NCBI RefSeq assembly: GCF_000003815.2
Contig: NC_049982.1
Coordinates: 10,129,947 to 10,193,946, forward strand
Direction: 5' to 3'
Source: Branchiostoma floridae
Lineage: Eukaryota; Chordata; Leptocardii; Amphioxiformes; Branchiostomatidae
Length of the DNA stretch: 64,000 nucleotides
The stretch's first letter is position 1, and every line of letters begins with the position of its first letter. A program made the translations under genes and the position numbers. Below, in pieces: positions 18,597 to 63,954 of the stretch. The notes below the pieces were generated by a model. It was not told the DNA's origin and ran no database searches. It was given only the letters and a program-made list of their open reading frames with translations.

Positions 18597-18906
18597 ATGC
18601 TATTTGAAAGGGAATGCTAAGCCAACCACGTGTCAAATCTCCAAGGAAAATAGATGTGTGGATTCTGTTTACACCTGCCTTATCTACAGGGCGTCATCAA
18701 TAAACAAATTAGTGTTGAGTCAATAAACAACATGGCGAACTTTTCCACCCCATGCTATTTGAAAGGGAATGCTAAGCCAACCACGTGTCAAATCTCCAAG
18801 GAAAATAGATGTGTGGATTCTGTTTACACCTGCCTTATCTACAGGGCGTCATCAATAAACAAATTAGTGTTGAGTCAATAAACAACATGGCGAACTTTTC
18901 CACCCC
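18597..18906. repeat. Exact 155-bp tandem duplication
   Basis: The block starting atgctatttgaaagggaatg at 18597 is repeated from 18752 with no difference that I can find over 155 bp, ending ttttccacccc in both copies. The two copies encode the same short frame in register, but this looks incidental. Identity means a very recent duplication, a polymorphic copy number or an assembly artefact. Confidence 0.9.
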
Positions 18907-20018
18907 ACGTCCATCCACATTTCAGCACCGTGCCCATCGTCCGTTACTTACAGAACACGTTACTGACTAGCCTTTCTGTGGGGCAGTCTGACCCATCAAT
19001 CTTGTTACATTAATCTGTCCGCACTGTTTACCATACCTAGGTTTTAATGCACTGACCGCTCGTTTGTCAAAAGGGAACGTTTGGTCAATGCAAGGTTATG
19101 ACTTAAATGGGGCATCCTTCGGACGACAAAAACACACATAACTTATTCATACATGTGTACTTATCATCAATGCTATTTTCGTTGAAAACTAAAGCTTTGT
19201 ATGTACTAGAAAGTTAATGATAATTGATACTTTTTCTATGTTAAACCGGTCATAGAAAAATGCACAAGTTGTCAAGTAAAGGCTAATGGCCGTACCGACA
19301 TATTTGCGGGGAAAACAAAAAAAGCAGATATCCGACATCCCAACAAAGGTATTGGTGCCAACGCTAGTGTGAGGTGACCACATATTACCCTGGTTTTACT
19401 ACGTCCTGTTTGTACCAGTGTTTATCACGCACCGCTTACGCACGGACATGTTGGCCCATAGTCTGTTTGACACAATGAGCTATCGACAGTTGTCCGGCTA
19501 CCTCCGATATGATACAGATTATAGACGAGTTTCCTCTATTAAAGCGCCTGAGCTTATCTTTAAGTTTCCTGTTGTCGTCGAAGGTTCTGACGGAGGTTAT
19601 CTTTAGTAGATAACTTGGAAAAACTCAGAGAAAGGTCACTCGGCCATCGACCCGGCCCTGTATTCACTCTTACAAATTGTGTTTTCAGAATAGAGTCCAA
19701 ACTATAGCCATAGCCATGATACACTTCTTTCTAGTTGTAGAAAACTAGCCTTGTGAAAGTGATTGTTCCACTGCAAACAACTTTCAAGCCTCTCGGTCAT
19801 TCGTAAACAAAAAAAAAGGAAAATTTCAAATATGTCATTTTAACGGGCTATGAGTACCAATAAAAATGTTCAAGCCTTTCTTTCATTGTTTGCTTGTCAT
19901 CGTGGCACCAAAAGAAAACAGAAGACTTGATTTACGTGCGACTTTTCGACCTTTTGAAGTCCACTTGAGCCTAGTAAGGTGACACAATAAAACAGCACTT
20001 GTCTCACGAATGTACAGA

Positions 20019-41998: not shown

Positions 41999-42022
41999 CT
42001 ACAGGTAGGAATCGTCACCAGT
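41999..42022 (-). CDS. Terminal exon: PDZ-type C terminus
   Basis: After an acceptor (tatttcag) the last exon encodes TGDDSYL and stop, in phase with the previous exon (ending VNE). The C-terminal S-Y-L fits a class I PDZ-binding motif. If the last intron is retained instead, translation runs to a stop at 43269-43271 and gives a hydrophobic tail (about 28 residues). The spliced form is preferred because of its phase and clean signals. Confidence 0.6.
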   Translation of the reverse strand, partial: TGDDSYL

Positions 42023-45000: not shown

Positions 45001-48000
45001 CAACAATATTCATCTCCCTATGTACTCTTTATGCCAAAATAAGAGTAGGTCGCCCAAACCTTCCATTAAAGAAGCTGATTGAGACTAAAACATGTGGGAA
45101 GCACCTGATCTAACCGAAATAGTATAGGAGGTATACAGGAGGGTGAGCTTTGTAAATTATTCAACCCTTCAATAATAATGATAATGATTTTATTTTCCAA
45201 ATGTGACATTAATTAAGGCATATTATTACCAATGTCACCCAGTGTCCTCCAAACACATCTGGATTATTGAGATCTATAGCTCATTTCAAAATCGACTATA
45301 TAAAGTACTGGTTGCAAATTAAGCGTACTGGCAAGAGAGTGTTCCACTGTTTGAGTCCATGCACGTTCCACCGTTCAGGCAGTAATTCGGGTTGGGACTG
45401 CAGAACGCCAGGCACCTCCCTGCGTAGCTGACGCAGTTGACTTCCGCGGCGCAGTTACAGTTGGTGATCGGCACTGCAGTAGTGTCTGAAAATGTGTAGA
45501 TGTTTTTTTTTTAGTATTTCTGTATATAAATACATTCCTGACCCTTCCATTTGTTATTTTCGTTATCCAGCAGCTTTATTTTTATGAGCAAGTCCTGTAG
45601 TAGACAGGAACGTACAACTTTTTTTGCAATTAAACTATTAGTAATCTAGTGACTTATGCTTGCTTCGATAGATTTTCGAACTTTCATAACGGAACTTGTG
45701 ATTAAGACTACACTACATTTTGTTCAAATAAATTAGTAGAAAAGAACAATGATTACTTGGAGGCGCGTAGGCAACCTGACTAGCGGCCAGATCCCCCAGC
45801 TTCCCCCCGTTGTTGTCGATGTACCGCTTGAGAAGCGCCACGGCCTCCACAGGGTCAGGGACCGCTTGGTTGTTCTTGAAGACCGTGTCCAAACTGGCAA
45901 CGACGCTCCCAGATCTTAAATAAGAACAAAATGTTTACCTAAATCACGTTGAAAGAATGTGAAAGACTGAATGTGGGTTTAGTGTGATAAGTTGATGTTT
46001 GTAATAAGTATCAAGATTACCTGAATTCTCCAGTTATACCTTTCTGTACCACAATACGTTGAAGAAAAAGCCACTTAACAATTTCAATCATTGAGTCACA
46101 GTATTTCTAAATTATATATACAGGTAGTAGATTTTGCTTTTGGACACTTTCCAACTCTTTAAAAATACTTACCGGAAGCCTTTGACTACCACACGCTGGA
46201 AGTTCGGATTGTTCTGGTACGCTTTTGACACCTTAAGGGAATAAAAACAAATTGGTCAATTTACATGATAAACAATACATCAATATTATAACTATGTCTT
46301 ATAAGCTGCCAATTTGAAATATACACCATGCGAATGTGATGTAATCTAAACATCAACAAAACGTATTCCCAGCTGCAGTAAGGTTCACAGTACTATTTTG
46401 CTTTGCTTAATCGGATAGGGAAATGTATGTGAAAATCACCAGCGTCGTTATTAGCAGGTTGACAGTCGTCTATGAAGGTCAGGCATCCAGGTAATAAGAC
46501 ACACCAAATATCAAACGGTTTTGGCATAAACAGTAGACAAAGGAGAACTGTGAACGTTCCGGATATTAACATGAATACACCTACCTCAGTTCTGACTTTG
46601 CTGGCCAGCTCTTGGAACACAGGGTGTGTCCTATTGTTCAGCTCCTGGGTGAAGTTCCGCTCCAGTGTGACCTCCGTTGGAATAGACACTTCGGCAACTA
46701 CAACGGATGAAGCTTTATGTTAAAGCATGTCTATTATCCAGTCATCTGCCGTTGCATGTCTGCTCTCTTTGAAAAAGGAACTTAAGCAAAATGTGTACGA
46801 CTGAAAGCTGTCAGAAGAAAGCCTAGTATTGTGATTTGCTGTCATTCTAAAATTTGACTTAGGTACCACGTAGGTTCAATGTAGTCACTGTCAGTTGTAA
46901 GCGTATAAATACCAGCATATAAATTTCCAGTTTATAGATTAAGAGAAAAATCTATATATTGAGATAGATAGATAGATAGATAGATAGATATAGATATAGG
47001 ACTAGATATAGATATAGATAGATAGATTAGATAGATATACATAGATAGATAAATATAGATAGATACCCGTTGGAGATGGTGTTGTCTGCGCTGGAGCTGT
47101 TGTTGCTGCTCTAGCAGTGCCATCAGTTCGAGACGCTGTTTCTGAAATTACAATGTGGATCAAATTAGATGGTTTGTTCATTATGATAGTTTCGTTCACC
47201 TTAAAGCCAAAAACTTTCTGGATTATTCACAGCTAGTGCAAATGACTCTGTTGGTGCCTCAATTGAGATGTCCTGGAGAGAACAGCTACGTTGACCACTA
47301 GAATAAACACTGTGGTGAGTACAGATACTATAGGACCTAGAAGGAAAAGTGAAATAGTATCACATGCAGATATGATAACTACTTGTGGGATCCTTCGGCC
47401 ATACCATGCAGACACGTTTGCAATGGAATAGCGTAGAATGCTTGTGTGCTGAGCTAGTACTATAAATGGTGAACTAAGATGATGAAGCGGGGAATAAGCC
47501 ATGCGGATTAATGTGCAAATGCGTTGGGTTGTCATAGAGGATGTAGAAAAATGAATGAAAACACAGGAAAACAAAATGGTTCTCCCTAATGACCTGACGT
47601 TGCTTGTGTTGTCGGGTTTGACTGACTAACAGTCGTTGGCTTTGATGTTTGGGCTGCTGTACTGCTCTGAACGGGAGTAGTTACAGTTTGCCGTCTCGTC
47701 GAAGATGCATCGGATTGTACTGTTGATCCAAGCAATGGTATGTTGTGTCATTCAAGAAATTCAAAAGCATCGGATTGCAATGATGAATGTTGGGTACTAA
47801 ACTGGGATGTGTATGGGTAATGAGCTACAAATGAGCTACAAATGAAAAAAGAAGACCAAAAGGACATTTTCTCCTAAAGACCTGGTGTTTGTTGTGTTGT
47901 TGGTTGTGATGGAGTCATAGTTGAGGGTTTAGATGTTGATGCAGTTATACGGGTCGGATTTTGAGTTGTAAGAGTTTGCTGGTCCGTCGAAGATGCAACA

Positions 48001-51000
48001 GATTGTACTGTTGATCCAAGCAAAGGTATGTTGTGTGATTAAAAAAATACAAACATTGGATAGAAATGATGCAGGTTGGGTTCTGAAATGGAATATGCAA
48101 GAGTAATAAATTTTTAAAAAAGGGGAAAAGGGAAACCCAAACAAAGAGTTCCAAAGACCTGGGGTTCGTTGTGTTGTTGGTTGTGATGGAGTCATAGTTG
48201 AGGGTTTAGATGTTGATGCAGTTATACGGGTCGGATTTTGAGTTGTAACAGTTTGCTGTTCCGTCGAAGATGCAGCAGATTGTACTGTTGATCCAAGCAA
48301 AGGCATGTTGTGTGATTAAAAAAAAACTTCCAAACATTGGATAGAAATTATGCATGTTGGGGTCTGAACTGGAGTATGCAAGAGAAATTAGTTAAAAATC
48401 TAAAAAAAGGGGGAAAGGGAAGCCCAGAGAAAGAGTTCCGAAGACCTGAAGTTTGTTGAGTTGTTGATTTTGATGGAGCCATAGTCGGGGTTTTAGTTGT
48501 TGATGCAGTTACGCGGGTCGGAGTTGGAGTTTTTACAGTTTGCTGTTCCGTCGAAGGTGCAGCAGATTGTACTGTTGATCCAAGCAAAAGCAAAAAAAAC
48601 ATTGGATTGCAATGATAGAGTTTGGGTATTGAACTTCAATACACATGAGTAAAAAGTCAAAAATAAAAACAACAAAAAATATAAAAAGGAAACTTAAAAA
48701 GAGTGTTTTGAAGACCTGGAGTTTGCTGTGTTGTTGATTGTGACGGAACCATGGATGTTGGTGCAGTTATACGGGTCGCGGTCGGAGTTTTTACAGTTTG
48801 CTGTTCCGTCGAAGGTACGGAAGATTGTACTGCTGATCAAAGTAATAGCATGTTGCGTTATTTAAAAAAATCAAAAGCATTGGATTACAATAAATTTCAA
48901 TATGCATGAGTAATAAGTCAAAAATAAAAGCAATGAAAAAATTAATAAAAAGGAAACTCAAAAAGAGTGTTTTGAAGACCTGGAGTTTGCTGTGCTGTTG
49001 ATTGTGACGGAACCATGGATGTTGGTGCAGTTATACGGGTCGGGGTCGGAGTTTTTACAGTTTGCTGTTCCGTCGAAGGTACGGAAGATTGTACTGCTGA
49101 TCAAAGTAATAGCATATTGTGTCATTCAAAAGCTCAAAAGGATTGTAATGATAACGTTTGTGTACTTAACTCGAAATAAATAAGACTAATAAGTTGAAAA
49201 TGAAAATTTTTAAAGCAACGTTCATAGAAACCCTAAGAAAATGTTCTCATAAAGACCTGGTGTTAGTGTTGTCGGTTTTGACGGAGTCATAGACGAGGGA
49301 TTAGATGTTGATGCAGCTGTGCCGACCGGAGTTGGAGTTTTTACAGTTTGTTGTTGAGTTGAGGATGCAGAAGCCTGTACTGTTGTTCCTGGTAGTGGTA
49401 GTGATATGTTGTGCCGTTAGAACATAATGATAAAGCAAAATAACCAAGGTGTCAATAAATGGTTTATCATTGTGAATAAGCAGTTGTTTTAGTCATATCA
49501 TTAACATTGATATTATTAAGCTTCCAGATTATGTAATGAAATGGATGATGTTAAAATTATAGTAGTTATATAATCATGTTAATAAGCATGCATTCTTGCA
49601 CCTGTAGCCGGCGTAGTAGAGAGTTTAGTCGGAGTCGCAGTCGGCACTTTAGAAGTTACTGCAGGTGTTCCGGACCGTGTAGTAGTTAGTACAGACGGTG
49701 GCCCGGTAGATGATGCAGAAGGTTGCACTGTTGAGTCACACAAGTATTATATTTACAAGTAAAAACATTTACACAAGTATGCCTCTTCATTCTCTTTACA
49801 AGAAGAAAATGATGAAAAAAGGATTGGTTTATGGTAAAACGGTAACCATTACCTTATGCACAAAATTAATACAACGTAGCATAAAACGATCTGATACCCT
49901 CGCCAGATGATATTAACCTTTATGAGTAAAGCATCATCGGAAGTTTCCTTTGACTGTGCAAATAAAGTCCTCATTTGCATAAACTTTCTTAGTTTATCAT
50001 CTTCTCTATCCAAATACCAGACATTGTTGAAAGTATTACTTATCTTAGCAAAGAATGCTATTGTAGCGTCTTCTCATAGATTATGTACACGTGACCCTGG
50101 TTTCCATGCTTCGGGTTTAATAATGTTCACCTTTACTTAGCGTCGTAACGATCTATGAATACATTCTTTAGTTATTCATGTCCAACATTCCCACCACCCT
50201 TACCCACCTACCAGATGTCATCACGACCCATGAAAGGCTTCTCACGACCCATGAAAAGTTGAGGTATGCTTTTCACAGACAGACAGACAAACAGACAGAC
50301 ACACAAACAAACAGACCTGGTGTTGGAGAGGTTTGTGGCGGTGTTGGCTGGGACACTGTTGGTCTCGACACAGTAGCTGTTGGTCTCGATGTTGATGCTG
50401 TTGGTCTCGATGTTGATGCTGTTGGTCTCGATGCTGTTGCTGTTGGTCTCGATGCCGCTGTTGTTGGTCTTGATGTTGTTGATGTTGGTGGTGTTGTTGT
50501 AGCTGGCTCGCACACCGCACCGTCTCCGACGTATCCTGTTCCACACGTGCAGGTGAAGGAACCAACGGTGTTGGTGCAGTTTGCTGACGCGTGGCAGTTA
50601 TGGCCGGCATCACACTCATCTACGTCTGTAGAGAACAGACATATACATTCCTGTTATTCAATTTAATATTAACAAAATGCATGCATTTGGTAGAATGCAT
50701 TTGGTACACTTGTTGCTGTGAAAAAAGTTAAAGAACTAACAGAACTAAGCAAAAATGATTTTACAATATGCAGTAGTTACAATGACTAGTGTAGCATTTT
50801 CATGGAGTAATTCGTAATTCGTACCCAGGCAGGTATCAGCATCTCCTGCAACAAATCCTGGGCTGCACACGCATTGGTACGACCCCACGCTGTTCTCACA
50901 GGTCCTGTTCGACGGACAGATGTCGTCATCCTCGCATTCGTTTGCGTCCACCTCGCACTGAGCACCCTTCCACCCGGCGGGACACACACAGCCCACCGTC

Positions 51001-54000
51001 ACGTTACATTCACCACGGTTGCAGCCGCAGATTTCAGCACAGTTTACACCGTATCGTCCTTCTGCGCACACTGTATGGGAAAGGCGATGAAATGATTATT
51101 ATATAGCGTGATAAACTGCAGAATAAGACGTAGCCCATGCTTACAACTATAGCAACAATGCTCAGTAAAAAATTATCAAACAACCAGTATGCTGTACTGA
51201 CTTGTACAAGTCCTTAGGTCATCTTGAAGCTGGTATCCGATGTCACAAGAGCAGGTATGACCGCCGTCTGTGTTTTGGCAGTTCTTCTTCTGACTGCATC
51301 TGTTCAGATCTTCGTTTCCAGGAGCACATTCGTCGACATCTATTGCATCGTAAAGATGAAACAAAACTTCTTTAGACACAAATCTAGACTTCTTTCACAG
51401 ACAACACCATTGATAGCTAGATGTAGGTATGACTCTTCAGCAATTGTACATTAGAAAAATCGATATCACACAGAGACAACGGTCTAGAAGAAGATAAAGG
51501 GTATTTAATAAGGACATGGTTAGAACGATGATGCGATTGTTGTCACACTGTGAAAACTTAATTTTATTTTTTCCTTACCTTCACAGGTGATGTTGTCTGC
51601 GGCGAGTTTGTATCCAGAAGGACAGAAGCAAACTGCCACGCCATTCTCAGTTCGACAGTTCTCACAGAGAGATACTGCGCAGACATTCCTTGCTGCTTGG
51701 TCTGAGAAGAACATGTAAAATCCGAAACTTTCACTGGCGTATTGTATGGCTGGACGCAGTAAGAAATGATCCTTAGCACTCTAACACTAGAAAGGGAAAA
51801 TGATCATTTGTAAGGAAATAAATGGAAGTCATTCGGGTGACAACACAAGAGATCGAACCTTGATAACATGTGACATTATTGGTAGCATTCAGGAAGAATC
51901 CATCATAGCAGTCACACTTAAATCCTCCTTCTGTGTTGTTACAGAGCTGCGTGCATCCACTAACACCATCGGCGCATTCGTCAATATCTGTGGAAAACAT
52001 TACGCATATGTTCTCATTGCGAGATGAATCTATGTGAAATCATTTTCAAATGATAAAGCAATCTTTTATGATAGAGAATTAATATAAGGGTAAGCAATAT
52101 TTTCTAAATGTCCTCGAGAGAAACTTTCAGTATGTGGCTAATATCAAACTTTTGAAAACGAAAAAAATTACTCTGCTTAGCATATTATATTCAAATGTAC
52201 CTGTGCAATTCCGCTTGTTCTCGGTGAGTCTGTATCCGGAAGGACATTCACAGCTGTAGCTCCTCAGCTCGTTCCTGCACACGGCCTTGGGTCCACACTT
52301 ATGCGTGCCGTTCGTACATTCGTCTATGTCTGAATAAAAGAAGATAGAGTTTTATGACTTCCATAGAGTATTGTCGTATTGATTCTTAACGATGGCACTA
52401 TTGGTTCATTTAGACAAATTTTAGATTAGAGAAGGTTGAGAGAGATGAGATGAGATGATGACTTTATTGAAAATTCGCAGTGGGACTACTGAATTGTGTT
52501 CAATTTACATTCAAAACACACAATAAAAAGAGTCGAATATTACACATTCCTAGGAATAAATACTATATACATATATACATAGTTTAAACTTGACGATTGT
52601 CTGATATCAGGGGAGTATTACTAATGCTGGAATTATGGACCGGATGCATTGAGCAGGTTGCTCATATACGGGATCGGTGAGTTGCTATATCGATTTGTCC
52701 TAGACTTATGACCGTTCAGTTTGTGGCTATTTCTAGTGGCTCGTCCCGAGGTTGCAAGTACAGATAAGAAAAACTATTTCACAAGCATACTCCCTTACCA
52801 CGACATTTGGCACCATCACCCTCCATGCCTTCTGGGCATGCGCTGCAGGTGTAGCCAACTCCAGGAGCCGGAACATCGGTGCAGTTCACCCCCATGTAGC
52901 AAGGGTCGTCTTCACAGCCGTCAATGTCAACCTCGCAGAACGTGCCTGCAGTAGAGATTATGACTATCTAATTAATCAATTGTTACAAACTCAATATTTT
53001 CATGATATCTAAAAAGATGCCGTCAATGAAACTGATACGTAATTTCTGTACATTATGAATTAAAGATTGAAACAATACCTTCAAGTCCAGGACCGCACAG
53101 GCAGGCGACGACCCGGAGTAAGGAGTCGATGTTCTGGTCGTCCGCCAAGTTGTCGAAGTCACACGTTCCGTTGTTCTCACACTTGCAAAGATTGACCGTT
53201 GGTCTCAGGATAGATGTCCCTCCTTTGCCGTCACTTGCCGTGAAGCTAGTGTAAATTTCGCAATGGTAAACCATTCAGAAACATCATAGAATTCATAACT
53301 GGAAGTATTGACAATAATAAAGGTCCCAAGGAGGCACCTGAGGCCGTAGCGGCAGTGGTGTCTAGGGCAAGACATTGGAAGGAGGAGCCCTTCCCTCTCC
53401 TTTTACTTCTCTAACCGAAGTTAGACATCCATTTTACATCATTAGTAAGAAAAATTGTGTAAAGTACTTTCCAAAGGAAAAGGCGTCTGGTCACGAATAA
53501 TCAAAGCCGTGACCTTTTGACCTCGTGTCATTCGCGTCCATTCAAAGTGATAAAAACTATTGACAAATGACTTTTCAACAATGTGCATTTGTACACGTAC
53601 ATGGCAGAAATCGGCACTAAATTTGTAAACTTCATATTAGCTAAGCAAACAATGCCTGCTTCCTGACCTCATGTTTAAGCTGCTGATTTGAGACGACGGT
53701 GTCCAGGAGAAAGTGGCTGTTGCGTTATCGAACACAGCGTTGCCAGGGATATTTTGTGCGCTGAACCTGACGGTGTCGTTGTTGATGTCTGTGGCGGTCA
53801 GGCCGAAGCTGACTTCTCTTCCAGTAGTGGCGTTGACGACGGTTGGGCCGAAGATTTTGGGAGGGAAGTTTGCTGGGAAAAATGGTATGAAACTTATGTC
53901 AAAATAAAGGATCCAACTGTTAAGAAAAAAAAACAACATAATTTCCTATACTTAATTTTCAGTCCTTGATAAAATGCAGATGTCACCCATTAGGAATGTT

Positions 54001-57000
54001 TAAAAATTATTACCAATTAGTGACGTATCTTGGACGAATCTTTCCCCTGTATTGGCAGTTGCTGCCCCTGTCATAAGATCACCCGTTGCAGCAGTGTCGA
54101 ACAGACATTCCTTGTTGCCTCTACACAATTCTTCAGCCTGTTGTCTCAGTTCCTCCGTGGCAAATTGTACCTCCAGGAGCGGCACAAAGTCTGGGTCCGG
54201 GTTAGCAAAGTCCCTCCAGCTCTGACTTCCATAGTTAAAGATAGAAGTCTGACTCGGTAACGTCCCTGTAGATATAGAAACATTGATTTTGAAAACATGA
54301 TGTCTGTACGATTCCTACCGCAACTGTTGGTCTCTAGAATTGTCCATATCCCCCTATCAAGTTGATAAGACGTGTACATGAACACGTTTTTTGATCATGA
54401 GAAGGGTAATGAACAGCCCAGAGTAGATTCATTTAATTGAATTGACATGATTGATACTTCGGAACGTACACAGTTGTCCGAAGGAATAGTAAATGTCTGA
54501 GTCGGAGGCGTTGATTGAAATGGAGGTTCCGTCTGGTCGAGTGAAGTCATCAGTGACGTCAACATTCCACAGTCCCATAAGTCCCTTAGTGTTGCCCTTG
54601 AACCTTGGAGGCGCCATCACGGTGATGGTCATTATCCCAACGTCTACTGCAACTTCAGCGGCGATTCCTATCAAAGACAAGTCTAAGGTTAAATTTCACT
54701 TTCATCACATTACATTCCGTCCTTCACATAAAAGCAAATACATCAATATTGTTTGTGCATTTTTCACCAGCTTCAACAATAATTACCTGAGGAGAACGAT
54801 GTAACAACGGAACCATTCGCTCCCTTGGACACCGTGACGCTGTTGAAGTCTTGACCGTCGCCTACCTCAAAATTCGTAAAATTGCTAAACAGATCACCAT
54901 CCACGTAAACGTCTATTCCTGCAAATCAAGACGGGTATTTGGTTAGCAATACGAAGCGCGCATACCATATTTACTTTAAGTAGAGGCAAAAGTGCCCATA
55001 TGTAAAAGTTGACAAGTTTTCTGTCAACGATCAGGGTGCTGTCGGGAATTTTAGAATGATAACTGTTTTCTAATGACGAATTACTAAACAATGCATTGTC
55101 AAATGAACTAGTCATCGCTTAGCTGTTCAAAAGCACTAAAGAATACTTAGAACTGAGATTTTAAATGTCGTAAACAAGATGGACATAAACAGGAACACAA
55201 TCTTTCACTATCAACACTTGGCAGAAAATCACCTGATGCATCGTCTTTGAGATTCATTTGAACTGTCGACGATTCGCCCTGCTTGGCTACAAAGGCACTG
55301 AAAATAGTCGCCTTTGTCGCCGTGCCATTCACGTCCACCGCTTTTCTAGTTCGGCCCTGCACCACTAACATGGCGTCTGGGACACCGAGCACCAGGTACT
55401 CCCCCAGTCCGTTGAATGTGTAGCTCTTTCCGTCCAGGGTTGTCAGGTGAGGGTCTCCCAATCCAATGGCTTTGGGAAGAGGTGACAAATCATTCCTCAT
55501 TTCAATACAATTATATCAATGTTAAGATTGAAACAATTGGATTTATTTCTCTGAACAAGCGTCAAAGTTGAAATATCATGGTCTTTGATTTTGAATTTAA
55601 GTATCTGACTATAAACTATAAAATACAGAACATTTAATTAGTTCTTTACATGTGTGCTTTTACTTTGTTTCAAAAGCATATCTTCATAATCATGTCTAAT
55701 TTCTTCTTCGGCCTATTGAAAACACATGTGAAAATTAATACTACTGTTGCCACTTGCTGATTAAAACAAAACATTAAATTTGCATGGTTTTCTGAAAAAT
55801 GGCCTCTAAAACGTAACATTTAAACTATGACGTACCCCATCTCGGCGGGTCGTATCGTTCGCAGGTGTCGGACGGGCGGTAGCGGTAGTACAGGTCACAG
55901 TTCCGGGACAGGAAGCAGCAGTAGGACCTGGGGAGGACGTCCTGGGCCCGGTACTGTTCGGGGTCTACTCTAGGGTCGAACAGACTCAGGGACCCTCCTC
56001 CGGGAAAGCCGAGCAGAAGGGCGCCTGAATCTTCTGGGTCGTCCTCTATGTCGCTGTAACAGCATCTCTATAATAGAGGAAGAAGAATACAGTACTCAGG
56101 GAACCTACATGTAACTTCAATGAATACATCACTAATACCCCCTTTTCACTAACACGGCGCTCTCTCTACGACATAGAATTTGACAGAACGCTCAACGAAT
56201 TGTATAGAAAGGAAACGAATTTTTTAATACTTTGTGCGTTTTGCTGCTATTTTACTTTTACATGCTATATGATATACCCCGTATGAAATCAAAGGTTACA
56301 CCTATCCTATTTAGGTCGCAGTGAGAGCGCATCGTAATCGTCGTCTAGTGGAAAGGGAGCCTGAGGGAACCTACATGATATGGAACTTACATCAACTATA
56401 CGACGTAGCTAGTTGTATCTACTACTTGTAGTTCTTCTGCATTTCTAGCATCTTAACATTGATCTGCACGTAATTTCAATGAGATCTGATTGAGGCGAAA
56501 TACAATTTAAAGATTATCTCGCATACCTGGCCTATTCCTAGTGGTGATGTCCAGCGAAGTTCAACACACATGTCGTCCCAGTATGTTCGGAACCGTCTAT
56601 CCCGTGTGGCCTGTGTCCACGAGCACGGACACGGCTGGCTGTCCAATGTGTAGTTCACCAACAGGGCTTCGTCCTGGAGACTTGCCCACCCAAGACACAG
56701 CTGGTCGTAGTTCACGTCTCCTTCTGCCGATACGTCCAGCCGGAAGAACCACTTGCCGCGGATACCTTCAGGAATAGATAAACACGGTAACCATTGATGT
56801 AATGTAGTCAAAATGATAAGCAGCTGTAATAGAGAGATAGAGGTTTGGCTTTTGTTCTGCCATACAGAATAACTGAATGCACATACCGGTGTTCCCATCG
56901 AAGTCGTTGATATTGAAGATCTCTGGAATCCCAGAATACTTGGAGTCAAAGAAGTTGACACTGTCAGCTGCCGTGTAGCCGCTACGCGCGTCCCGCCATG

Positions 57001-60000
57001 TCTGCTGCCAGTTCATCGCGCCATAGTTGAAGATGGCGAACGACTTCACTCCGTCAGTGGCAAGAACGAGCTGATGCGTTACAGTCTGCAAATAAACAAC
57101 AAACATGTAAACGTGTACCAGAATCATAGCGCCGAGTTGAACGACTTGGCTGAATCAAATAAAATCAAAATGAATGACTTTTCAGAGCTCTCTTTTATTT
57201 GATAAAGAGATTTTTAACATTCGACCGCTCACCTCATGAGGGTTGCTAGTGCTCGGGTATGCCGTCATGTTGGCCCAAGTTATAACGGCGATCCAGGACG
57301 GGTCAAAGTCGCCACCTGTCAGACCACCGTATGCTGTGACGTCACTAACCACGCGCGTCACCACGTTAGCTGCAAGGATGGCGACGTTATTGCCTCTTCC
57401 GCCTCCGTTGTTGGCAGGCAGCCGCACAACCTTGCCCTTGTACTCTTGGTAGAACACGTTGGATTGGCCGTAGCGCTCCCTCAGGTCATGGTCCGCCCAG
57501 AACGGAGCAATCACAGGCGTGCTGCCTCCGGTACGGAAAGGCACAGGTATGTAGCTGCAGTAGCGTCTTCCAAAGCTGATCAGCCCATTGGTACAAATCT
57601 GAAACGTTTAGTAATACATGTTGACTACTGTGGTAGACAACAACATCTAAAGCCATTGTGTTTAATATTGCATGTTTTGTACTACGTAATATGGTTAATA
57701 CTCGTACCTTTGCTTTAAGTATGCTACAAATAAAACAGATATTGCCTATACATCAGTCCAAAAAACTCTATACAAGATGTCACCTACTGATACAGCATGC
57801 AGAATCACATCATGATAACTTACATATGAACTGGCATGTCTGGTGTCGAAGAAGGGAAAAGCTGTTGGGATGTTGATTCTGTCAGACGTNNNNNNNNNNN
57901 NNNNNNNNNNNNNNNNNNNNNNNNNNNNNNNNNNNNNNNNNNNNNNNNNNNNNNNNNNNNNNNNNNNNNNNNNNNNNNNNNNNNNNNNNGCGATTGGATC
58001 TTCGCACAATTACACAACCGTGTCTCCTTGTCCCGGGCCATATGGATACAAATCTACACCTAGAGAACAGAAAACATTAAGTTAAATGGATAAATTAGAA
58101 ATGATTTTACAATTTCTTTTCATTTTTCTTATACGGTAAACGCATCAGTATAATGTGTAATGAAATGATAAAAGTCCCAAATAGCCTAATACCCAGTTTA
58201 TCTAAAAACATTAACTTGTACGTACGGCTAAATCACTTATCATATATATCGTAGCATTTTTTTCTTCTGAATTCCTTTGTAGTTAGTCATATTAATAAGT
58301 TTCCCTCCAAAGTAATGTCTTTTATTTTGACAAACTTTATAAAACATAATTATAAATCGTCTCACTCATAGCGGCCTCGCAGTCTGCACGGTCCTGTCCA
58401 GGCGGGGTTTGTGTGTCAGGGATCTCTGTCCCATCAGCGATGACACACCAGCAGTACCCGGTACTGGGATGGCACTGTAGGTTCTCGTAACTACCGTCGT
58501 CTTGGCATTGCGGTAAATACACTCCGACAGCAAGAGAACCATCCTGTTCTACCAGGACACTCTGGATATGTTCGTGGCATCTTCCGACAATGCCTAATGT
58601 AATTAAGCAAAATACAGGCGAACAAGTCAATACGATGTATTGGCAGAAATTGAATAGTACATGCATGATAATTTCCCCGGATATTTTTTTTACTAAAAGC
58701 ACTTACTAAACAAAAATGAACCTACGTATTTCACAGCTGTATCCAGTAAAGCCGTCTTGGCAGGTGCAACGATAGCCAACCATCCCGAACTCTCCATCTA
58801 GCTCCTCACAGTCTCCGTTCTCTCCGCACGGGTTTCCGTCGCATGGTCTAGTTGTGTTATCTATTGTGATCGAGATGTAAAAAATATATATTATTATTTT
58901 TTAATTTCGTTTTGCAGCAGCCATATACGACTCCTGGTTTATCATAACATTTCGATTTTGAGTTTTGACGAATAAAGAGCAAATGCTGCATATGCCGTTT
59001 TGGTATAAGTGATGTGTTGGCATAAGTGATAAGTGGTTGCTTGTGCGGGTACTTATCTCTACGAAAGCGTTGATAATGTGCATACCTGGAGGTACACCGA
59101 CGACTTGGCTCACAGTCAAGCTACCAAGACGTCCTCGTTTATCGCTGATGTACTGTTGGAGAGTTTCTATCGCAGCCTCAGCCGATTCTGGGGCCTGGCC
59201 AGTGTTCTCAAACTCCATGTCAACAGTGGCAACTACGCTCCCCGGGCTTAAGTGCGAGGAAAAAATCACCGTTAGTACATGTGTGTACATATATTAGTTA
59301 ATGATTTGTTTGTTAAAACGAGTAATTTTGATTTCAACTGATTTGAAGGCAATAGCACCAACTTCATACTTACCGAAAGTTTCTCACAGTTGCCCGACTA
59401 GAGCTGTAAATGCCTCTAAAAGCTTTGGGTATCTGTAAATAAAAGATATTATTGCACGATCAATACAGCATTTTCACCCCAAATCTCAGGAAATATTACG
59501 ATAACAGAAATGAAAGAAATCCCATTCATAGATATGTGCATCACCTCTCGTTCCAAAGTCGCTGCAAGCATCCGGTACTGTTGAGTATTCCTGTCGTTAA
59601 GGTCCGCAGTGAAGACTTCATCGGGCAAAGTTAAGGCGGCAGAGACCTTGACTGAAAACATCAATAACAATCGGGTAAGTTCATTTTTGTTGTCTTTCAA
59701 ATTACACACAGTTCAACTTTATCCAGAAGTACTGTAAATGCAGAAATGTTCGCGGTGGATTAATGTTCGCGTCTTTCGCGGCGGCCACTTTACCGCGAAT
59801 TTAAAACCACCGCGAACATTTTTTCATGGTAGTATTATAAGAGACTACAGTGCATGGTGTTACCGCGAAATTAAAACCACCTCGAAAAGTCCTTTTTCCC
59901 GCTACCGCGAAATTAAATCCCCGCGAACTTAAATGCATTTACAGTATTTGGTATGAGTTGGCTAGTGATTGAACTCACTACATAGAGCAAGCACAGTTAC

Positions 60001-63000
60001 TATTCGGAAATTTATAAAGGGCTCCTCCGGAGTTCTTGCTACTTGATGATGAATACGGCATTACCCTTATTTACATTTTCGCACAGACATTGACATTCAA
60101 ATGAGGTAAACTGGATACTATTTCTATGGATCCAGGGTCAAGCAATTTCCATGTTTTACACAAAAGGAGTTCTCATATACAAAACGTCCAGTCACATACC
60201 TGGATAGGGTGAAGTGCATCTACCCTGGGGAGCAAAATCGTTACATTCAAATGGCCACATCTCTCCGCTATGCGTAAGAATCTGTTCACAGCTTTCTCTC
60301 ACATCATTACAGAAGTCTCGGCATGGAGGTATCTGCACAAAACAGGAAGGAAAATGACAAACTTGTGATGCAGTACGTCCCGTAATAGGTACATTATAAT
60401 TACCTTTGGCAAATTTTACCGATTTTGTATAGAGAGTATTCAAAACAAACACAGATGAGTATCCGTGACCAGACACAATGCAATCATCAATGATCATGCC
60501 AAAACCACCAATGAATAATGTGTTGTCAGTATACAGATTTACCTGCATTGAGCCGACGCAGTTTGGCACCAGCGCAGAGCAGACGGCAAATTGAACATCA
60601 AGATGACAGCCACTGTTCATCAGAGCGGTGATTGTGTTGACGCTGTCCTGGTCGGTAAGGAAAGCTTGCTGGGAAACATGGCCCAGCAGGTTGGGGAACG
60701 TGGTGGTGTTGTATGGCACAGCATTTCTGCACATGCCGATTTCAATTGGCTCACATTGAGCTGAAAATACAGGGTAAAGGGTGTGCGATAAATTAAGAAA
60801 CTAAACATATCAATACGAGTCGATGTATTAGAAGCATCAGTACTATAAGTATGCTGTGAAAGTCTGAAACTAAAACTGTAAACAGACACCAACACGAACA
60901 ATTTATCAAATGCCTAGCTGAAAGCAGCAAACAACCTGTAAAACGACTAATTGTTTTTGTACAAAAGATAGATTTACAAGTACATGTTGATATAATCTTC
61001 ATATTCTTGATACCAGCTAGACATACTTTTCTGTCAAAACCATCAACTACACATGACTCATCATAAATTATTGCGTAATCAACAGTTTAGTCAAAGTTAC
61101 CTGGCGACGGTGTCGTGCATTCTCCTTGGAATTCAAACGGGAATATTTCACATTCAAAAGGCCACTCCTGATCAGCCATCGCCAGCATCGGTTGGCAGGA
61201 TGCTCTGATTTCATTACAAAAACCTCTACAGTGTGGCAGCTAAGATAGTAACATGAAAAAATGCATAATTATTGTGATTCTTTGCAACGATTAGAAAGTA
61301 CCATAAAACGGGAAAATTGCATAAAATGACGGATCTCGAAAAGAAACTTAGGATGCTCAAAAATAACGTTCCTACACAAAGGATAAAAACTAACCTGTTT
61401 TGAGTTCACGCAGTTTGGAACCAGTGCAGAACACACAGCAAACCTTATGTCAGGATGACAGTTACTGTTCATCAAAAGGTTAACGGTATTGACACTGTCT
61501 GGATCACTTAAGAAGGCCTGTTGAGAACTGTGGCCCAGTAGATTTGGGAACAGTGTTGCAGTGTACGGCACAACGCCTTGGCAAACGTCTATCATGATCG
61601 GTTCGCACTTGGCTGCAAAATTGAGAGAACAATATCATTGATCATGAGAGAAACAGTCTCGTAATTAAAAGGAGATATAAATCAATAGAGCTGAAATGTA
61701 CAACATTTCTTAAGCTTTAGCATGTATTTATACCTTTAATCTTTATACAGTAGTTATCGCGTAATTAGCTTTCATGCTGTAGTCACCATGTTTACTCTAT
61801 CATTCTTTATCAAATCAAAGTACACATACCTTTTTCTTCGCGGCATGGGCCATCAGACAGGGTCACATTGTCAATACTAACATCGCCATCACCATCTACA
61901 AATGCCTGAATTGACACCTGAACAGAACAAAATTCATTATTCAATATTAGACAATAATCAATTCATAGTTCTCTTTAAGAATTACCGTAGAGTAGCAACT
62001 CAACATTGGATGCAACTAAGTTAGTAAATCAAAAGGTTTACAAGAAAATCACCTGGACTGAGTCTAGACCCGTCCTGATGCTGATGCTCGCGGTGGTCCA
62101 GTTGTTGCTCACAGACCTGGAGGTTGTCGTGTTCCAGGCGTTCCAGGACACGCCATTTGGCCCCATCAGTTTGACAAGGACCCTGCTGTCACCTCCTGTC
62201 AGCTTGTACTGGAACTTCATGCACTTGTCATCTGTATAGATCCTTGGGCTGACGAGCAGTTGCGACGATGAAGCACTGGAAGCTACATGCTTTCCTAAAA
62301 AGACATGCAGGGATGATGATGTATAGTGTGACCCATATTTTTGTCGTACATATTTTACATAGTCAAATTGGAAATTTTCTATGAAGATATCGTCTTAAGA
62401 ATAAAAACACAAAGTAGGACCAATGAAATAGTGCAGAAAGGTATATCACTTATACTTGGTTCCTGTGCGGTTCGTTGTGACATACAAGGCTCACCTTGTC
62501 CTGGAGAGCTGGCTACTTGCATCCATGGCTGATTTGCACTTCCAGACGCAACTTGGTTCCAGTTGCAGAAGTCGTAGTCGAATGTACAGTTGACTCCTAA
62601 AACATATCGTGTTAGTGTTTAAACCGGTGCCTTAATATACATTAAACATGATGGAGCTCATGTTGAGCCATACTATGCAGGCCTACATATGGTGAATATT
62701 TGTTGATTTGGGGGACGTTTGCTGTTAAATATAATTGAAACAGTAATATATGACACGGTAACATTATCCCCAGTAACTGCTAACCTTTAAAAAGTATGCA
62801 GGTGTCATTGTGGACAGAGTCAGGGAACGTTGCGTAGCACCATTCTTTGGTTAATGGGACTTGCAAAGCGTCGACTTCGTCTGAACACTCCTGCCGCACT
62901 TCTTCACACACGGCGCGACAAACTGGTTTGCCTCGGACCCCATCCTCGATACACTCCGGAACCACCTGCAGGTAATGAGTATTTGAGGATTGTATAACCT

Positions 63001-63954
63001 TTCTCCTAGTTAAAGCCGTGACTCTCCAAACAACCTTTAAGGCAGAAATGTATTTATGCAAAGACAAGAAAAATTAGCTGATACAAAGAACAAAACATTG
63101 ACAGTTCAGCGCACACGAAAACAAACACTAAAACAATCAGAGCGTCGATGATATACCGGTACATACCAAGTGGCAGTAGAATAAGTTGCTATCAGGATGG
63201 CAATTTGTATCGGCAAAACTGACAGCTAGCTGGTGGACGTCTGATTGTTCGATCACTGTCACGTTCTCCTGGCCGTAGTAGTTGGGGAAGAATGCGCTGG
63301 TGTAGTTGATCACACCCTGGCAGTACCCGAAGTCCATAGGCATACAGTTGTCTAGAAAATGATAATTAGTTATACTTTTGCAAATGTACAAGGAAAAGCA
63401 ACACATTGCACCAAGCAAGGTTTTTATTTCTTTGTGTTGTATACACAGAACATCTAAACGCACTACCTTTGTACTGAAGAGAACGAAAAGCAATCATGAT
63501 TCAACCATGAGTGTTATATAATTGGTACTTACATGTTCCACAGGCTTCTTCACTTTCATCATCATTGTAAGGGCAGACTGGTATTCCGTCACAGAATTGC
63601 CATGGGCCAACGCATTGCCCTGAACCATAGCATTTATAATGTCCTTCGGGACAGCCCTCTAAATGTAGATTTAGGATATGAAATAAAAAAGCGGCGTATT
63701 ATTATGTGATAACGAAGTGTTTAGCATGTGCTAAGAGGGAAACTAATTTGTATTTTCATAATCTCATTACCAATAAGCAGATGGCAACGACGTCTTAAGA
63801 CAAAAGTATAACTTTACCTCCTTCTGGTACAGAACAGTATGGTTGATCATTAGATAAGCTTTGGCAGCCATTGGGGTCCCAGGTGAGGCCGAGGGCGTTC
63901 GCTCTTGCTGCGCACGCAGCAGTGACGCTCTCACAGAACGAACGGCATGGAAGT
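41999..63954 (-). CDS. Giant MUC4-like membrane mucin/receptor with Frizzled, MAM and SEA modules (5' end outside window)
   Basis: Fifty-two coding exons read in consistent phase from 63954 down to a stop at 41999-42001, about 2,700 residues; the signal peptide lies beyond the right edge. N to C: Frizzled CRD (partial), LDLa, Frizzled CRD, MAM, two Frizzled CRDs, SEA, EGF, thyroglobulin type-1, NIDO, AMOP, VWD, Ig-like, EGF-type modules, Ser/Thr/Pro mucin region, SEA, EGF, membrane helix, cytoplasmic tail. NIDO-AMOP-VWD-EGF-TM is the hallmark of MUC4 and related proteins. The added front modules suggest Wnt-type or lipid ligand binding (Frizzled CRD) and adhesion (MAM). Both SEA domains have a GSVVA cleavage-type site, so the mature protein is probably a non-covalent heterodimer. 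One gap and one in-frame stop lie in the NIDO exon. Most exon borders are phase 1, which favours module shuffling. Confidence 0.88.
42023..43355. other. Last intron of the mucin-like gene
   Basis: 1.3 kb between the cytoplasmic-tail exon and the small terminal exon. A 74-codon plus-strand frame at 42709-42933 has a hydrophobic stretch but no other support. Nothing else is recognised. Confidence 0.45.
43356..44541 (-). CDS. Transmembrane helix and cytoplasmic tail exons
   Basis: Exons 44418-44541, 43925-44067 and 43356-43567. The first encodes a single hydrophobic helix ([20 protein letters not shown]) followed by basic residues (KTCMKSKS), a type I stop-transfer signal. The tail has several tyrosines in signalling contexts: VIYDNV and IIYHNP (both pY-x-N, the Grb2 SH2 type), VVYDFSG, and PYQSL (a YxxPhi sorting motif). 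This suggests that the mucin signals or is endocytosed. The donor at 43923-43924 (gttata) is weak but keeps phase. Confidence 0.8.
44886..45485 (-). CDS. Juxtamembrane EGF-like module
   Basis: Exons 45329-45485 and 44886-44938. Cysteines follow the pattern NCNC...[15 protein letters not shown]...CQC, ending with YSGDRCES just before the membrane helix. An EGF between SEA and TM is the usual layout of membrane mucins such as MUC4, MUC3 and MUC12, where it can engage ErbB-type receptors; whether this one does is unknown. Confidence 0.8.
45757..46697 (-). CDS. SEA domain 2 (membrane-proximal)
   Basis: Three exons, 46585-46697, 46173-46231 and 45757-45914. The domain opens [15 protein letters not shown] and contains [13 protein letters not shown], the strand-turn-strand where SEA domains self-cleave between Gly and Ser. 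The 59-nt middle exon has the same size and phase as in the first SEA domain of this gene, so the two SEA domains share an exon plan. Close position to the membrane fits shedding of the long mucin part. Confidence 0.85.
46961..47064. repeat. GATA microsatellite touching a splice donor
   Basis: Imperfect (GATA)n/(TATAGA)n array. On the coding (minus) strand it starts directly after the donor of exon 47067-47141, reading gtatctatctat. Length changes here could affect splicing. Confidence 0.85.
47067..47141 (-). CDS. Short Ser/Thr/Pro linker exon
   Basis: 75 nt, phase 1-1, encoding an Ala/Thr/Pro-rich piece ([14 protein letters not shown]) between the mucin cassettes and the second SEA domain. 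It is probably a diverged end member of the cassette family. Confidence 0.7.
47594..49727 (-). CDS. Eight tandem mucin cassette exons
   Basis: Exons at 49602-49727, 49257-49379, 48980-49093, 48716-48829, 48446-48571, 48159-48284, 47882-48007 and 47594-47719. Lengths are 126, 123, 114, 114 or 126 nt, all multiples of three and all phase 1-1. Each encodes about 40 residues of the form [20 protein letters not shown]...S/T/P-rich...QQTPG, a dense O-glycosylation substrate without cysteines. Flanking introns are also similar, with a unit length of about 240-345 bp, so whole exon-intron units were duplicated. Any number of cassettes can be skipped without changing frame. Confidence 0.85.
50317..50625 (-). 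CDS. EGF module with minisatellite-coded mucin tail
   Basis: One 309-nt exon. It begins with a calcium-binding EGF ([17 protein letters not shown]...) and continues into a Ser-Arg-Pro-Thr-Ala repeat ([13 protein letters not shown]) coded by units of about 15-24 bp between 50353 and 50478. The repeat ends at a donor that abuts a CAGA-type microsatellite (50276-50316). This exon marks the switch from the EGF run to the mucin region. Confidence 0.85.
50353..50478. repeat. Coding minisatellite (SRPTA units)
   Basis: Near-identical units of the type gttggtctcgatgttgatgct in tandem, read on the minus strand as AGCATCAACATCGAGACCAAC. The number of units is likely to vary between individuals. Confidence 0.85.
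50825..52945 (-). CDS. Run of EGF-like modules
   Basis: Exons 52799-52945, 52201-52329, 51859-51987, 51579-51701, 51202-51339 and 50825-51070, all multiples of three and phase 1-1. Several begin with the calcium-binding signature DIDEC or DVDEC (52201, 51859, 51202); the last holds one laminin-type ([13 protein letters not shown]) and one NECEDDDIC module. With the modules before and after, this makes a stiff stalk that lifts the N-terminal domains above the mucin region. Confidence 0.85.
52330..52798. other. Intron between EGF exons
   Basis: 469 nt. It holds a short gagatgagatgatgactttattga stretch that looks repeat-like, but I cannot assign it to a family. Confidence 0.4.
53079..53872 (-). 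CDS. Ig-like (putative-Ig type) module and short EGF
   Basis: Exons 53668-53872 and 53079-53245. The sequence [20 protein letters not shown] and [12 protein letters not shown]...FSWTPSS resembles the Ig/cadherin-like fold found after VWD in MUC4-type and related proteins. It runs into [10 protein letters not shown] and a cysteine-rich part ([14 protein letters not shown]) that is an EGF-like start. Confidence 0.75.
53246..53667. other. Intron within the Ig-like/EGF block
   Basis: A 422-nt intron. I see nothing in it beyond its splice signals. Confidence 0.5.
54014..55469 (-). CDS. VWD domain and following conserved block
   Basis: Exons 55233-55469, 54787-54918, 54470-54667 and 54014-54265. 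The VWD begins [24 protein letters not shown] is also the motif at which several mucins are cleaved. The middle part has [15 protein letters not shown], the conserved VWD signature, and the last exon carries [13 protein letters not shown] and [11 protein letters not shown], typical of MUC4/SUSD2-type proteins. Junction phases 1,1,1,1 all agree. Confidence 0.88.
55836..56765 (-). CDS. AMOP domain
   Basis: Exons 56527-56765 and 55836-56067. Key pattern: [20 protein letters not shown], then [14 protein letters not shown], then RCCYSD...[16 protein letters not shown] and CERYDPPRW. Paired cysteines and the PCPC-like motif are diagnostic of AMOP, found in MUC4, SUSD2 and ISM proteins, always extracellular. 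It links NIDO to VWD here as in MUC4. Confidence 0.88.
56887..58059 (-). CDS. NIDO domain, interrupted by gap and in-frame stop
   Basis: Exons 57824-58059 (containing the 100-N gap), 57233-57598 and 56887-57085. The domain starts [16 protein letters not shown] and continues [40 protein letters not shown] and [15 protein letters not shown], all NIDO hallmarks. Following phase from the preceding exon, TAA at 58010-58012 falls in frame directly after GDTVV; reading resumes in the same frame as LCEDPI. With everything downstream intact, a base error near the gap edge is more likely than a real truncation. Confidence 0.75.
57890..57989. other. Assembly gap (100 N) inside NIDO exon
   Basis: Exactly 100 N, an arbitrary length. 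NIDO domains usually have about 20-25 residues between the GD and FPFF motifs, and most of these are already visible, so the true missing piece may be only a few codons. Confidence 0.95.
58366..58593 (-). CDS. Thyroglobulin type-1 domain
   Basis: One 228-nt exon, phase 1-1. The motifs [17 protein letters not shown] and GYCWCV define the domain (QC and CWCV signatures); it ends [10 protein letters not shown]. Some type-1 domains inhibit cysteine proteases; no test of that is possible here. It is not part of the standard MUC4 layout. Confidence 0.9.
58726..58860 (-). CDS. EGF-like module before thyroglobulin type-1
   Basis: 135 nt. Encodes [18 protein letters not shown]...[17 protein letters not shown] chose the upstream acceptor (caatag before 58860) because only this one keeps the phase of the preceding SEA exon; the nearer one (aactag) would shift the frame. 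Confidence 0.85.
59086..59651 (-). CDS. SEA domain 1
   Basis: Exons 59545-59651, 59374-59432 and 59086-59246. Begins [14 protein letters not shown] and contains [13 protein letters not shown], a cleavage-type GSVVA site. The middle exon is 59 nt, the same as in SEA 2. A second, internal cleavage site could separate the Frizzled/MAM front from the rest of the protein. Confidence 0.85.
59730..59946. mobile_element. Short MITE with TACTGTAAATGC terminal repeats
   Basis: About 217 bp in the intron before SEA 1. The ends tactgtaaatgc (59730) and gcatttacagta (to 59946) are exact inverted repeats. Inside are several CGCGAA blocks in both orientations (for example ttcgcggtgg and ccaccgcgaa), giving internal hairpins. 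No coding capacity. Typical of a high-copy non-autonomous DNA element. Confidence 0.75.
60200..60760 (-). CDS. Frizzled-type cysteine-rich domain 4
   Basis: Exons 60543-60760 and 60200-60332. Encodes [35 protein letters not shown], then [15 protein letters not shown] and WPFECNDF, the ten-cysteine Frizzled fold. The 210-nt intron between them is a multiple of three and has no stop in frame, so a retained-intron product would also be translatable. It is very similar to CRD 3, a likely local duplicate. Confidence 0.88.
61101..61612 (-). CDS. Frizzled-type cysteine-rich domain 3
   Basis: Exons 61395-61612 and 61101-61239. Encodes [64 protein letters not shown] and [10 protein letters not shown]. 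The first exon is 218 nt, exactly as in CRD 4, with the same phases and intron site. Confidence 0.88.
61830..62596 (-). CDS. MAM domain
   Basis: Exons 62495-62596, 62053-62294 and 61830-61917. Starts [14 protein letters not shown], continues [19 protein letters not shown], and ends [18 protein letters not shown]...GPC, the standard MAM pattern of adhesive ectodomains. It lies between the second and third Frizzled domains. Confidence 0.88.
62785..63351 (-). CDS. Frizzled-type cysteine-rich domain 2
   Basis: Exons 63167-63351 and 62785-62965. Encodes [34 protein letters not shown], then [25 protein letters not shown]. It is more diverged from CRD 3 and 4 than they are from each other, but the intron lies at the equivalent site. 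Confidence 0.82.
63533..63658 (-). CDS. LDL-receptor class A module
   Basis: One 126-nt exon, phase 1-1. Encodes [31 protein letters not shown] and DDESEEACG. Six cysteines and the acidic calcium-site end are present, although the usual D-C pair in the centre is V-C. Confidence 0.82.
63818..63954 (-). CDS. Frizzled-type cysteine-rich domain 1 (C-terminal half)
   Basis: Most upstream exon in the window, encoding [20 protein letters not shown], then [17 protein letters not shown]. This is the second half of a Frizzled domain; its first half and the signal peptide must lie beyond position 64000. Confidence 0.75.

Follow-up and report, generated by a model that had tools for sequence, protein, structure and literature searches.

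A putative membrane mucin gene joining Frizzled-type domains to a MUC4-like core in the amphioxus Branchiostoma floridae

Introduction

The window analysed here, by which we mean the whole stretch of 64,000 nucleotides from the amphioxus Branchiostoma floridae (NCBI RefSeq assembly GCF_000003815.2, contig NC_049982.1, positions 10,129,947 to 10,193,946 of the forward strand), carries on its minus strand a long series of exons that encode Frizzled-type cysteine-rich domains (CRDs), with which Wnt receptors bind their ligand, together with a MAM domain and a thyroglobulin type-1 (TY-1) module, followed by a core of the type found in the mucin MUC4. An earlier interpretation of the letters alone, from here on called the sequence-only reading, took all of this for one gene and suggested a mucin that senses or traps Wnt. 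Two questions are raised by the locus: whether the Frizzled part and the MUC4-like part belong to the same gene, with an assembly gap lying between them, and what a mucin with such a head would do. Our answer to the first is that a single gene is very probable, because an exon leading into the NIDO region, matched in phase, lies on the same side of the gap as TY-1. The answer to the second is graded, and the capture of Wnt-type ligands is its least certain part.

Results

The gap consists of 100 Ns at 57890-57989 and lies inside the NIDO region, just before the Pfam NIDO match. On its TY-1 side there is a lead-in exon of 15 residues (58013-58059, minus strand, as are all exons of this gene), recognised from its acceptor and its motif. 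The acceptor before 58059 is the top-scoring one within 58365-57990, is in phase 1 and ends a 306-base intron after TY-1, and at 58051 stands the motif LxPxGPGQGD, which we take to be how the NIDO regions of nidogens start. The loose form of this motif occurs once in the six frames of the window, and 3 matches were obtained in 200 shuffled windows. Past the gap, reading resumes in the NIDO exon (56887-57889; Pfam NIDO 6.4e-31), where the match covers positions 2-185 of the 186 in the profile and extends about 10 residues into the next exon. Most likely, to judge from the sequence, the gap falls inside one NIDO region and not between two genes.

The sequence-only reading had rested its one-gene claim on a reading phase that was continuous from the first Frizzled exon to the membrane helix, and it made no mention of the gap. 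The claim itself survives by way of the lead-in exon at 58059, but the argument from phase does not. The phases are consistent within each part, on either side of the gap, while the Ns interrupt them in between, and phase agreement was a requirement of our chain search and hence no independent test. Phase continuity is also a weak proof because the introns at module boundaries are all in phase 1, so that unrelated modules would join just as well; we rejected it, since the shuffled phase-1 modules of two genes would fit too.

The same stretch has to be weighed for two other arrangements. In one, two adjacent genes are joined only across the gap, the first for a secreted protein with the order Fz-MAM-Fz-SEA-EGF-TY-1 and the second for a MUC4-like mucin. 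The gap, which is still open in the assembly, does separate the two parts, phase agreement comes cheap, and if the TY-1 exon is left unspliced it meets a stop (58337-58339) after nine more codons, with AATAAA next at 58326. The TY-1 donor is weak (-0.1), with A instead of G ahead of GT, and, unless splicing or an error at the contig end intervenes, the lead-in exon meets a TAA in frame at 58010-58012; the donors available to this exon are weak as well (-1.8 after 58008, -2.5 after 58014), and the second alone precedes the TAA. These points count against a single gene, but the start of NIDO that would be expected from nidogens lies on the TY-1 contig, with the best acceptor and the right phase, and no second start of this kind was found in the six frames of the window. 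Each part moreover contains one of two SEA domains that are duplicates of each other. No signal-peptide exon was recognised around the TY-1/NIDO junction, though ATG starts that have a hydrophobic stretch are found at three places within 59100-57600, including one (58211) in the intron that separates TY-1 from the lead-in exon, and a single AATAAA means little when there are 15 on the minus strand in 23 kb. Two separate genes are in our judgement very improbable.

In the other arrangement a single gene gives rise both to the membrane mucin and, by intronic polyadenylation after TY-1, to a short secreted product that consists of the Frizzled head. It draws on the same stop and AATAAA right behind the TY-1 exon and on the A before GT in the donor of that exon, and it is weakened by the abundance of AATAAA on this strand and by a gene that is known from genomic sequence alone; we regard it as improbable.

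With the single gene thus as the preferred reading, 51 exons could be reconstructed, the first beginning at 63954 and the last ending with a stop at 41999; the 5' end is outside the window. They divide around the gap into 16 exons at 63954-58366 (819 residues) and 35 at 57889-41999 (1827 residues and the stop), and the lead-in exon at 58059 is counted in addition to them. The sequence-only reading had given 53079 as the limit, while the check that it proposed began at 41999; the coding sequence does continue to 41999. AG precedes 50 of the exons, the remaining one beginning at the gap, and GT follows 50 of the 51, the remaining one being the stop exon. The introns have a median of 207 bases (n=50, the gap stretch counted as one intron), and 35 of the 50 are in phase 1, including every one at a module boundary.

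The first model came from a chain search on splice sites and codon use and was then corrected by reading the sequence by hand. The chain scored 694 on the target strand; the opposite strand there gave 36.9, the two strands of a neighbouring stretch 30.1 and -0.7, and 10 shuffles, which were approximate dinucleotide shuffles, at most 3.8. The codon model had been trained on domain cores of the mucin gene itself, a choice that biases the score towards the target, although the margin remains wide. A 16-nt exon of the automatic chain at 57839-57824 was dropped, part of it being retained within exon 57889-57824, and the exons 57723-57708 (16 nt), 50457-50212 and 47448-47405 were dropped upon sequence reading. 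Exons that the automatic chain had missed, one at 54667 and those with much Pro, Thr and Ser (PTS exons), were added by hand. Two 5' ends that were too short (63619 and 62231) were reset to 63658 and 62294, and three 3' ends (54083, 50547 and 45416) to 54014, 50317 and 45329, while an over-extended exon start at 51749 was reset to 51701, which is one among several possible starts.

The order of the modules in the outer part is Fz (half seen), a degenerate LDLa, Fz, MAM, Fz, Fz, SEA, EGF and TY-1; in the inner part it is NIDO, AMOP, VWD with GDPH, C8-3_MUC4, an Ig-like domain, EGFs and eight Pro/Thr/Ser exons; and at the membrane end it is SEA, EGF, the transmembrane helix and a tail with a DSYL terminus. 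A Pfam domain search, proposed by the sequence-only reading, placed Fz, MAM, NIDO, VWD and SEA above the cut-off and AMOP below it.

Frizzled domains were found by Pfam Fz in four stretches (7.9e-61, above cut-off), in keeping with the at least four that had been claimed, but whole domains are seen in three of them only, as the window edge cuts the first. Of CRD1 the second half is present (63818-63954, Pfam Fz positions 74-109), and this half domain, scanned alone, gives E 4.5e-4 and 21.2 bits, below the cut-off of 32.1. CRD2 (62785-63351, Pfam Fz 7.5e-18) and CRD3 (61101-61612) are each made of two exons with an internal phase-0 intron, and CRD4 lies at 60200-60760; all three have ten Cys, which is the count of Frizzled-type CRDs. 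CRD3 and CRD4, both matched by Pfam Fz, share 62% identity and the motif PNLLGH, in place of which CRD2 has PNYYGQ. In the PDB the closest match of CRD2 was FZD8 (1e-9), that of CRD3 was FZD7 (4.9e-16) and that of CRD4 was FZD4 (3e-19, the aligned part being CRD4); the best scores of CRD3 and CRD4 were to FZD4, FZD7 and FZD2, with Smoothened far weaker (2.7e-5). From their sequence CRD3 and CRD4 appear to resemble the CRDs of Wnt receptors, and they may bind Wnt.

Between CRD1 and CRD2 lies an LDLa-like module (63533-63658, Pfam Ldl_recept_a E 0.013), which has six Cys but stays below the Pfam cut-off when scanned alone (16.1 bits against 24.1); it looks like a degenerate LDLa module, its acidic cluster being judged by eye. 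The MAM domain (61830-62596, three exons, 1.3e-12) and the TY-1 module (58366-58593, Thyroglobulin_1 1.6e-18) are clear, so that from the trio of LDLa, MAM and TY-1 that had been proposed only LDLa is left under the cut-off.

SEA domains occur twice, SEA1 in the outer part (59086-59651, three exons, Pfam SEA 1.2e-10) and SEA2 near the membrane (45757-46697, three exons, 1.8e-8), each with the motif GSVVA (59228-59242 and 45896-45910). An EGF module stands behind each of them, at 58726-58860 (Pfam EGF 1.4e-4 and EGF_Teneurin 1.3e-5, both above cut-off) and at 44886-45485 (Pfam EGF 8.3e-5, above cut-off). The 37% identity of SEA1 and SEA2 (E 4e-23), their identical exon phases (1-0, 0-2, 2-1) and the EGF behind each make SEA-EGF look like a duplicated unit. 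A unit of this kind would be expected if a MUC4-like gene had been joined by a protein with a Frizzled head or by a duplicate of the present gene's terminal part, which is a possible history.

The MUC4 core that had been claimed was found, with NIDO, VWD and its GDPH, C8-3_MUC4, EGFs and the membrane helix; AMOP is the weak member. The AMOP-like region is made of two exons (55836-56765, Pfam AMOP E 2.7e-4), and scanned alone it gives 21.5 bits against a cut-off of 25 and covers just positions 3-41 of the 143 in the profile. It is Cys-rich and stands between NIDO and VWD, and on this position and a Cys pattern judged by eye we accept it as a weak, sub-threshold AMOP candidate. The VWD domain (54470-55469, 1.9e-10) occupies three exons with GDPH at 55447-55458 and is followed by the MUC4-type C8-3 domain (54014-54265, C8-3_MUC4 1.3e-13) and by an Ig-like domain together with the start of the EGF block (53079-53872, He_PIG 6.9e-8, scanned alone). 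NCBIfam holds no family for the stretch from AMOP to EGF. When the stretch from NIDO to the first EGF was compared with the PDB, eight sequences were matched at E up to 1, in VWD and the stretch directly before it.

The EGF block (EGF_CA and cEGF; EGF_CA 2.7e-33 in five stretches) continues over 50317-52945 and ends in a PTS stretch of 21-nt repeats, and eight Pro/Thr/Ser exons with phases 1-1, recognised by sequence reading, follow at 47067-49388. Seven of these (47594-49388) form a tandem array in which the introns are included, with a spacing of mostly 258-288 nt. Since two adjacent units are 92% identical, the copy number of the array may vary. The PTS region, counted as the eight exons and the 21-nt-repeat stretch, has 386 residues of which 58% are Pro, Thr or Ser; the label mucin is justified, and the part that earns it is found between the EGF block and the membrane. 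The transmembrane exon (44418-44535) has its helix at 44462-44533, with a 19-residue mean hydropathy of 2.89; no other value exceeds 1.69 (within VWD) in the second part or 1.28 in the first, which leaves one clear helix. The exons of the cytoplasmic tail (41999-44067) end in a last exon at 42022-41999 that reads DSYL and a stop. Four YxN motifs occur in the tail, a number attained by 3 of 2000 tail shuffles; YNNV, YDNV and YHNP are among them and presumably match the Grb2-type pYxN pattern. DSYL is a class I PDZ pattern.

Elsewhere in the window, a KY-like gene lies on the plus strand at 5554-8704, with Ig-like_KY matches of 1.5e-10 (6795-7187) and 9.1e-42 (two stretches, 7718-8704) in Pfam; its transglutaminase-like exons (5554-5769 and 6129-6302) were seen by eye only and have no Pfam match, and a second gap of 100 Ns (7221-7320) falls within it. 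Two exons of Ras-family small GTPases are found on the minus strand, at 9677-9874 and 20446-20922 (Pfam Ras 5.9e-12 and 1.1e-19), and are so alike by eye that they are perhaps paralogues. A perfect tandem duplication of 155 bases (18597-18907, 2.0 copies, 100% match) is either very recent or an assembly artefact. On the plus strand, an open stretch of 323 residues (3920-4888) with, by eye, many Asn, Ser, Thr and acidic residues belongs to no Pfam family; its coding score is high (87.9), under a codon model derived from the mucin gene. Scans of the whole window for tRNA and, at the gathering threshold, for Rfam families gave no match.

Discussion

The part of the protein that resembles MUC4 has NIDO, a weak AMOP, VWD with GDPH, C8-3_MUC4, EGFs and the membrane helix in the identical order, while the amphioxus gene adds four Fz domains, an LDLa-like module, MAM, two SEA domains and TY-1. 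The tail of MUC4 is short, unlike the long one seen here. The tandem repeats of MUC4 sit in its N-terminal subunit with NIDO and AMOP (PMC8660890), whereas the PTS region of the amphioxus protein comes after the EGFs. MUC4 is also described as the transmembrane mucin without SEA (PMC9080433), and in this feature of vertebrate MUC4 the two SEA domains set the amphioxus protein apart.

At its membrane end the protein is instead similar to MUC3, MUC12 and MUC17. These have an EGF adjoining SEA, and they are not known to have a core of NIDO, AMOP or VWD, or any Frizzled CRD. In the amphioxus gene a membrane-proximal SEA with a cleavage-type motif (SEA2 with GSVVA) is followed by EGF and the membrane helix, and the whole C-terminal order of PTS, SEA, EGF, membrane helix and PDZ-type end is that of the MUC3 cluster, to which MUC4 does not belong. 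A class I PDZ pattern such as DSYL has been described for this cluster (PMC9578598).

The head recalls other proteins. Corin and MFRP carry LDLa beside their Fz CRDs, and we know of no MUC4 core in either of them. Both are membrane proteins that, like the present one, have Fz CRDs in their outer part, two in corin, which differs in being a serine protease (PMC6747125). With Frizzled receptors and secreted Frizzled-related proteins (sFRPs) there is a likeness in that CRD3 and CRD4 can be aligned along almost their full length with FZD7 and FZD4 and less strongly with sFRP3, but the amphioxus protein has several CRDs per chain and, by Pfam, neither a seven-helix membrane domain nor a netrin-like domain.

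The combination is unusual, yet it is assembled from familiar parts. Adding domains to a MUC4 core is a known habit, because in sea anemones, Actinia tenebrosa among them, MUC4-like proteins bear extra N-terminal domains on a NIDO-AMOP-VWD core and some of them a C-terminal SEA; there the additions are CUB, ZP and FN3, and the main text of PMC9080433 does not contain the word Frizzled. In the accessible part of PMC7853314 two coral proteins are given under 'Frizzled domain' and NIDO and AMOP appear in legends, but they are not placed in one protein; among the papers listed that contain at least three of NIDO, AMOP, Frizzled and VWD, this one has all four and no other has Frizzled. No report of Fz, MAM and TY-1 on a MUC4 core was found among the papers listed in the full-text searches, which leave out most subscription papers and do not extend to animal protein sets. 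This agrees with the sequence-only reading, which knew of no described protein with the combination, although automated annotation may well hold it. A scan with CRD3-CRD4 of viral contigs found nothing, and a NIDO-AMOP-VWD scan of prokaryote genomes gave 13 pattern matches and no relatives; both collections are uninformative on novelty among animals.

What such a protein would do can be put together from its modules. Made as one chain, it would be a type I membrane mucin of giant size, the helix being followed on the inner side by a signalling-type tail. Going outwards from the membrane one would meet the EGF, SEA2, the PTS stalk with its expected O-glycosylation, the EGFs, VWD-AMOP-NIDO, TY-1, an EGF, SEA1 and finally the head with at least four Frizzled CRDs, MAM and the LDLa-like module. 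In the SEA domains of ADGRF1 and ADGRF5, self-cleavage is reported to follow from the motif GSVVV (or GSIVA), and the two halves of a cleaved SEA domain remain joined until a pull separates them (PMC6954182, also PMC9578598). GDPH in VWD is the putative cleavage site of MUC4 (PMC8660890). By analogy both SEA domains and GDPH may cut themselves during folding, with the fragments remaining attached, which would give up to three breaks and divide the protein into head, core, stalk and membrane stub. Force or a ligand might then free the head at SEA1 or the entire ectodomain at SEA2. The tail could be positioned by a PDZ protein via DSYL, and YDNV, YNNV and YHNP could recruit SH2 adaptors. From its motifs, a self-cleaving tethered mucin seems to us probable.

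The role of the head is more doubtful. CRD3 and CRD4 might hold Wnt-type acylated ligands, so that the protein would concentrate or soak them up at an epithelial surface, and a shed head might act as a multivalent secreted Frizzled-related protein. A tethered head with several CRDs that can be released and captures acylated ligands seems to us the most natural mechanism, but judged by these two domains the binding of such ligands is conceivable rather than likely, and a mechanically releasable Wnt trap, where the multi-Frizzled head or the ectodomain is shed when force opens a self-cleaved SEA joint, is unlikely. For most mosaic CRD proteins, according to PMC6747125, a Wnt role is either not known or not fully proven; ROR1/2 are the exceptions, and there is some Wnt evidence for the CRD proteins CPZ, COL18A1 and MuSK.

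It is also conceivable, with a chance that we put just short of even, that the same single gene encodes an epithelial mucin which arose by exon shuffling and binds matrix or microbes, and in which the CRDs are structural or adhesive and have no Wnt role. Phase-1 introns at module boundaries, as this gene has them, are the mark that exon shuffling leaves, and PNLLGH is gone from CRD2. For the Fz-type CRDs of MFRP and corin a Wnt role is unproven (PMC6747125), and the domains added to sea anemone MUC4-like proteins (CUB, ZP and FN3, for example) are other ones (PMC9080433). On the other hand, the ten Cys and PNLLGH are retained in CRD3 and CRD4, which are nearest to the Wnt-binding CRDs of FZD proteins, and mosaic CRDs that act on Wnt do exist, such as CPZ with Wnt4 and the COL18A1 CRD against Wnt3a (PMC6747125).

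Taken as a whole, the best explanation that we can offer is the one-gene, self-cleaving mucin with a ligand-capturing Frizzled head, which we put forward tentatively and at somewhat less than an even chance. Several observations tell against it. GSVVA in both SEA domains differs from the exact GSVVV, and SEA1 against the PDB gave three weak matches (best E 0.14), with MUC1 absent among them. CRD2 is without PNLLGH, and DSYL is so short that it may occur by chance. The N-terminus and signal peptide are out of view beyond the window edge, genomic DNA is the only source for the gene, and no relative that would show a conserved architecture was found in the viral and prokaryote collections scanned.

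Conclusions

If the protein is made as we read it, the mucin coat of an epithelium would be tied to the capture of Wnt-type signals, two subjects that are usually kept apart. A MUC4 core and a PTS-SEA-EGF end with a membrane helix and PDZ terminus in one gene would bear on the origin of membrane mucins and suggest that both classes may have come from, or met in, one ancestor, and if the reading as a Wnt trap is true, the MUC4 class and the SEA/PDZ class, which are separate proteins in humans, would be united in a single chain in amphioxus.

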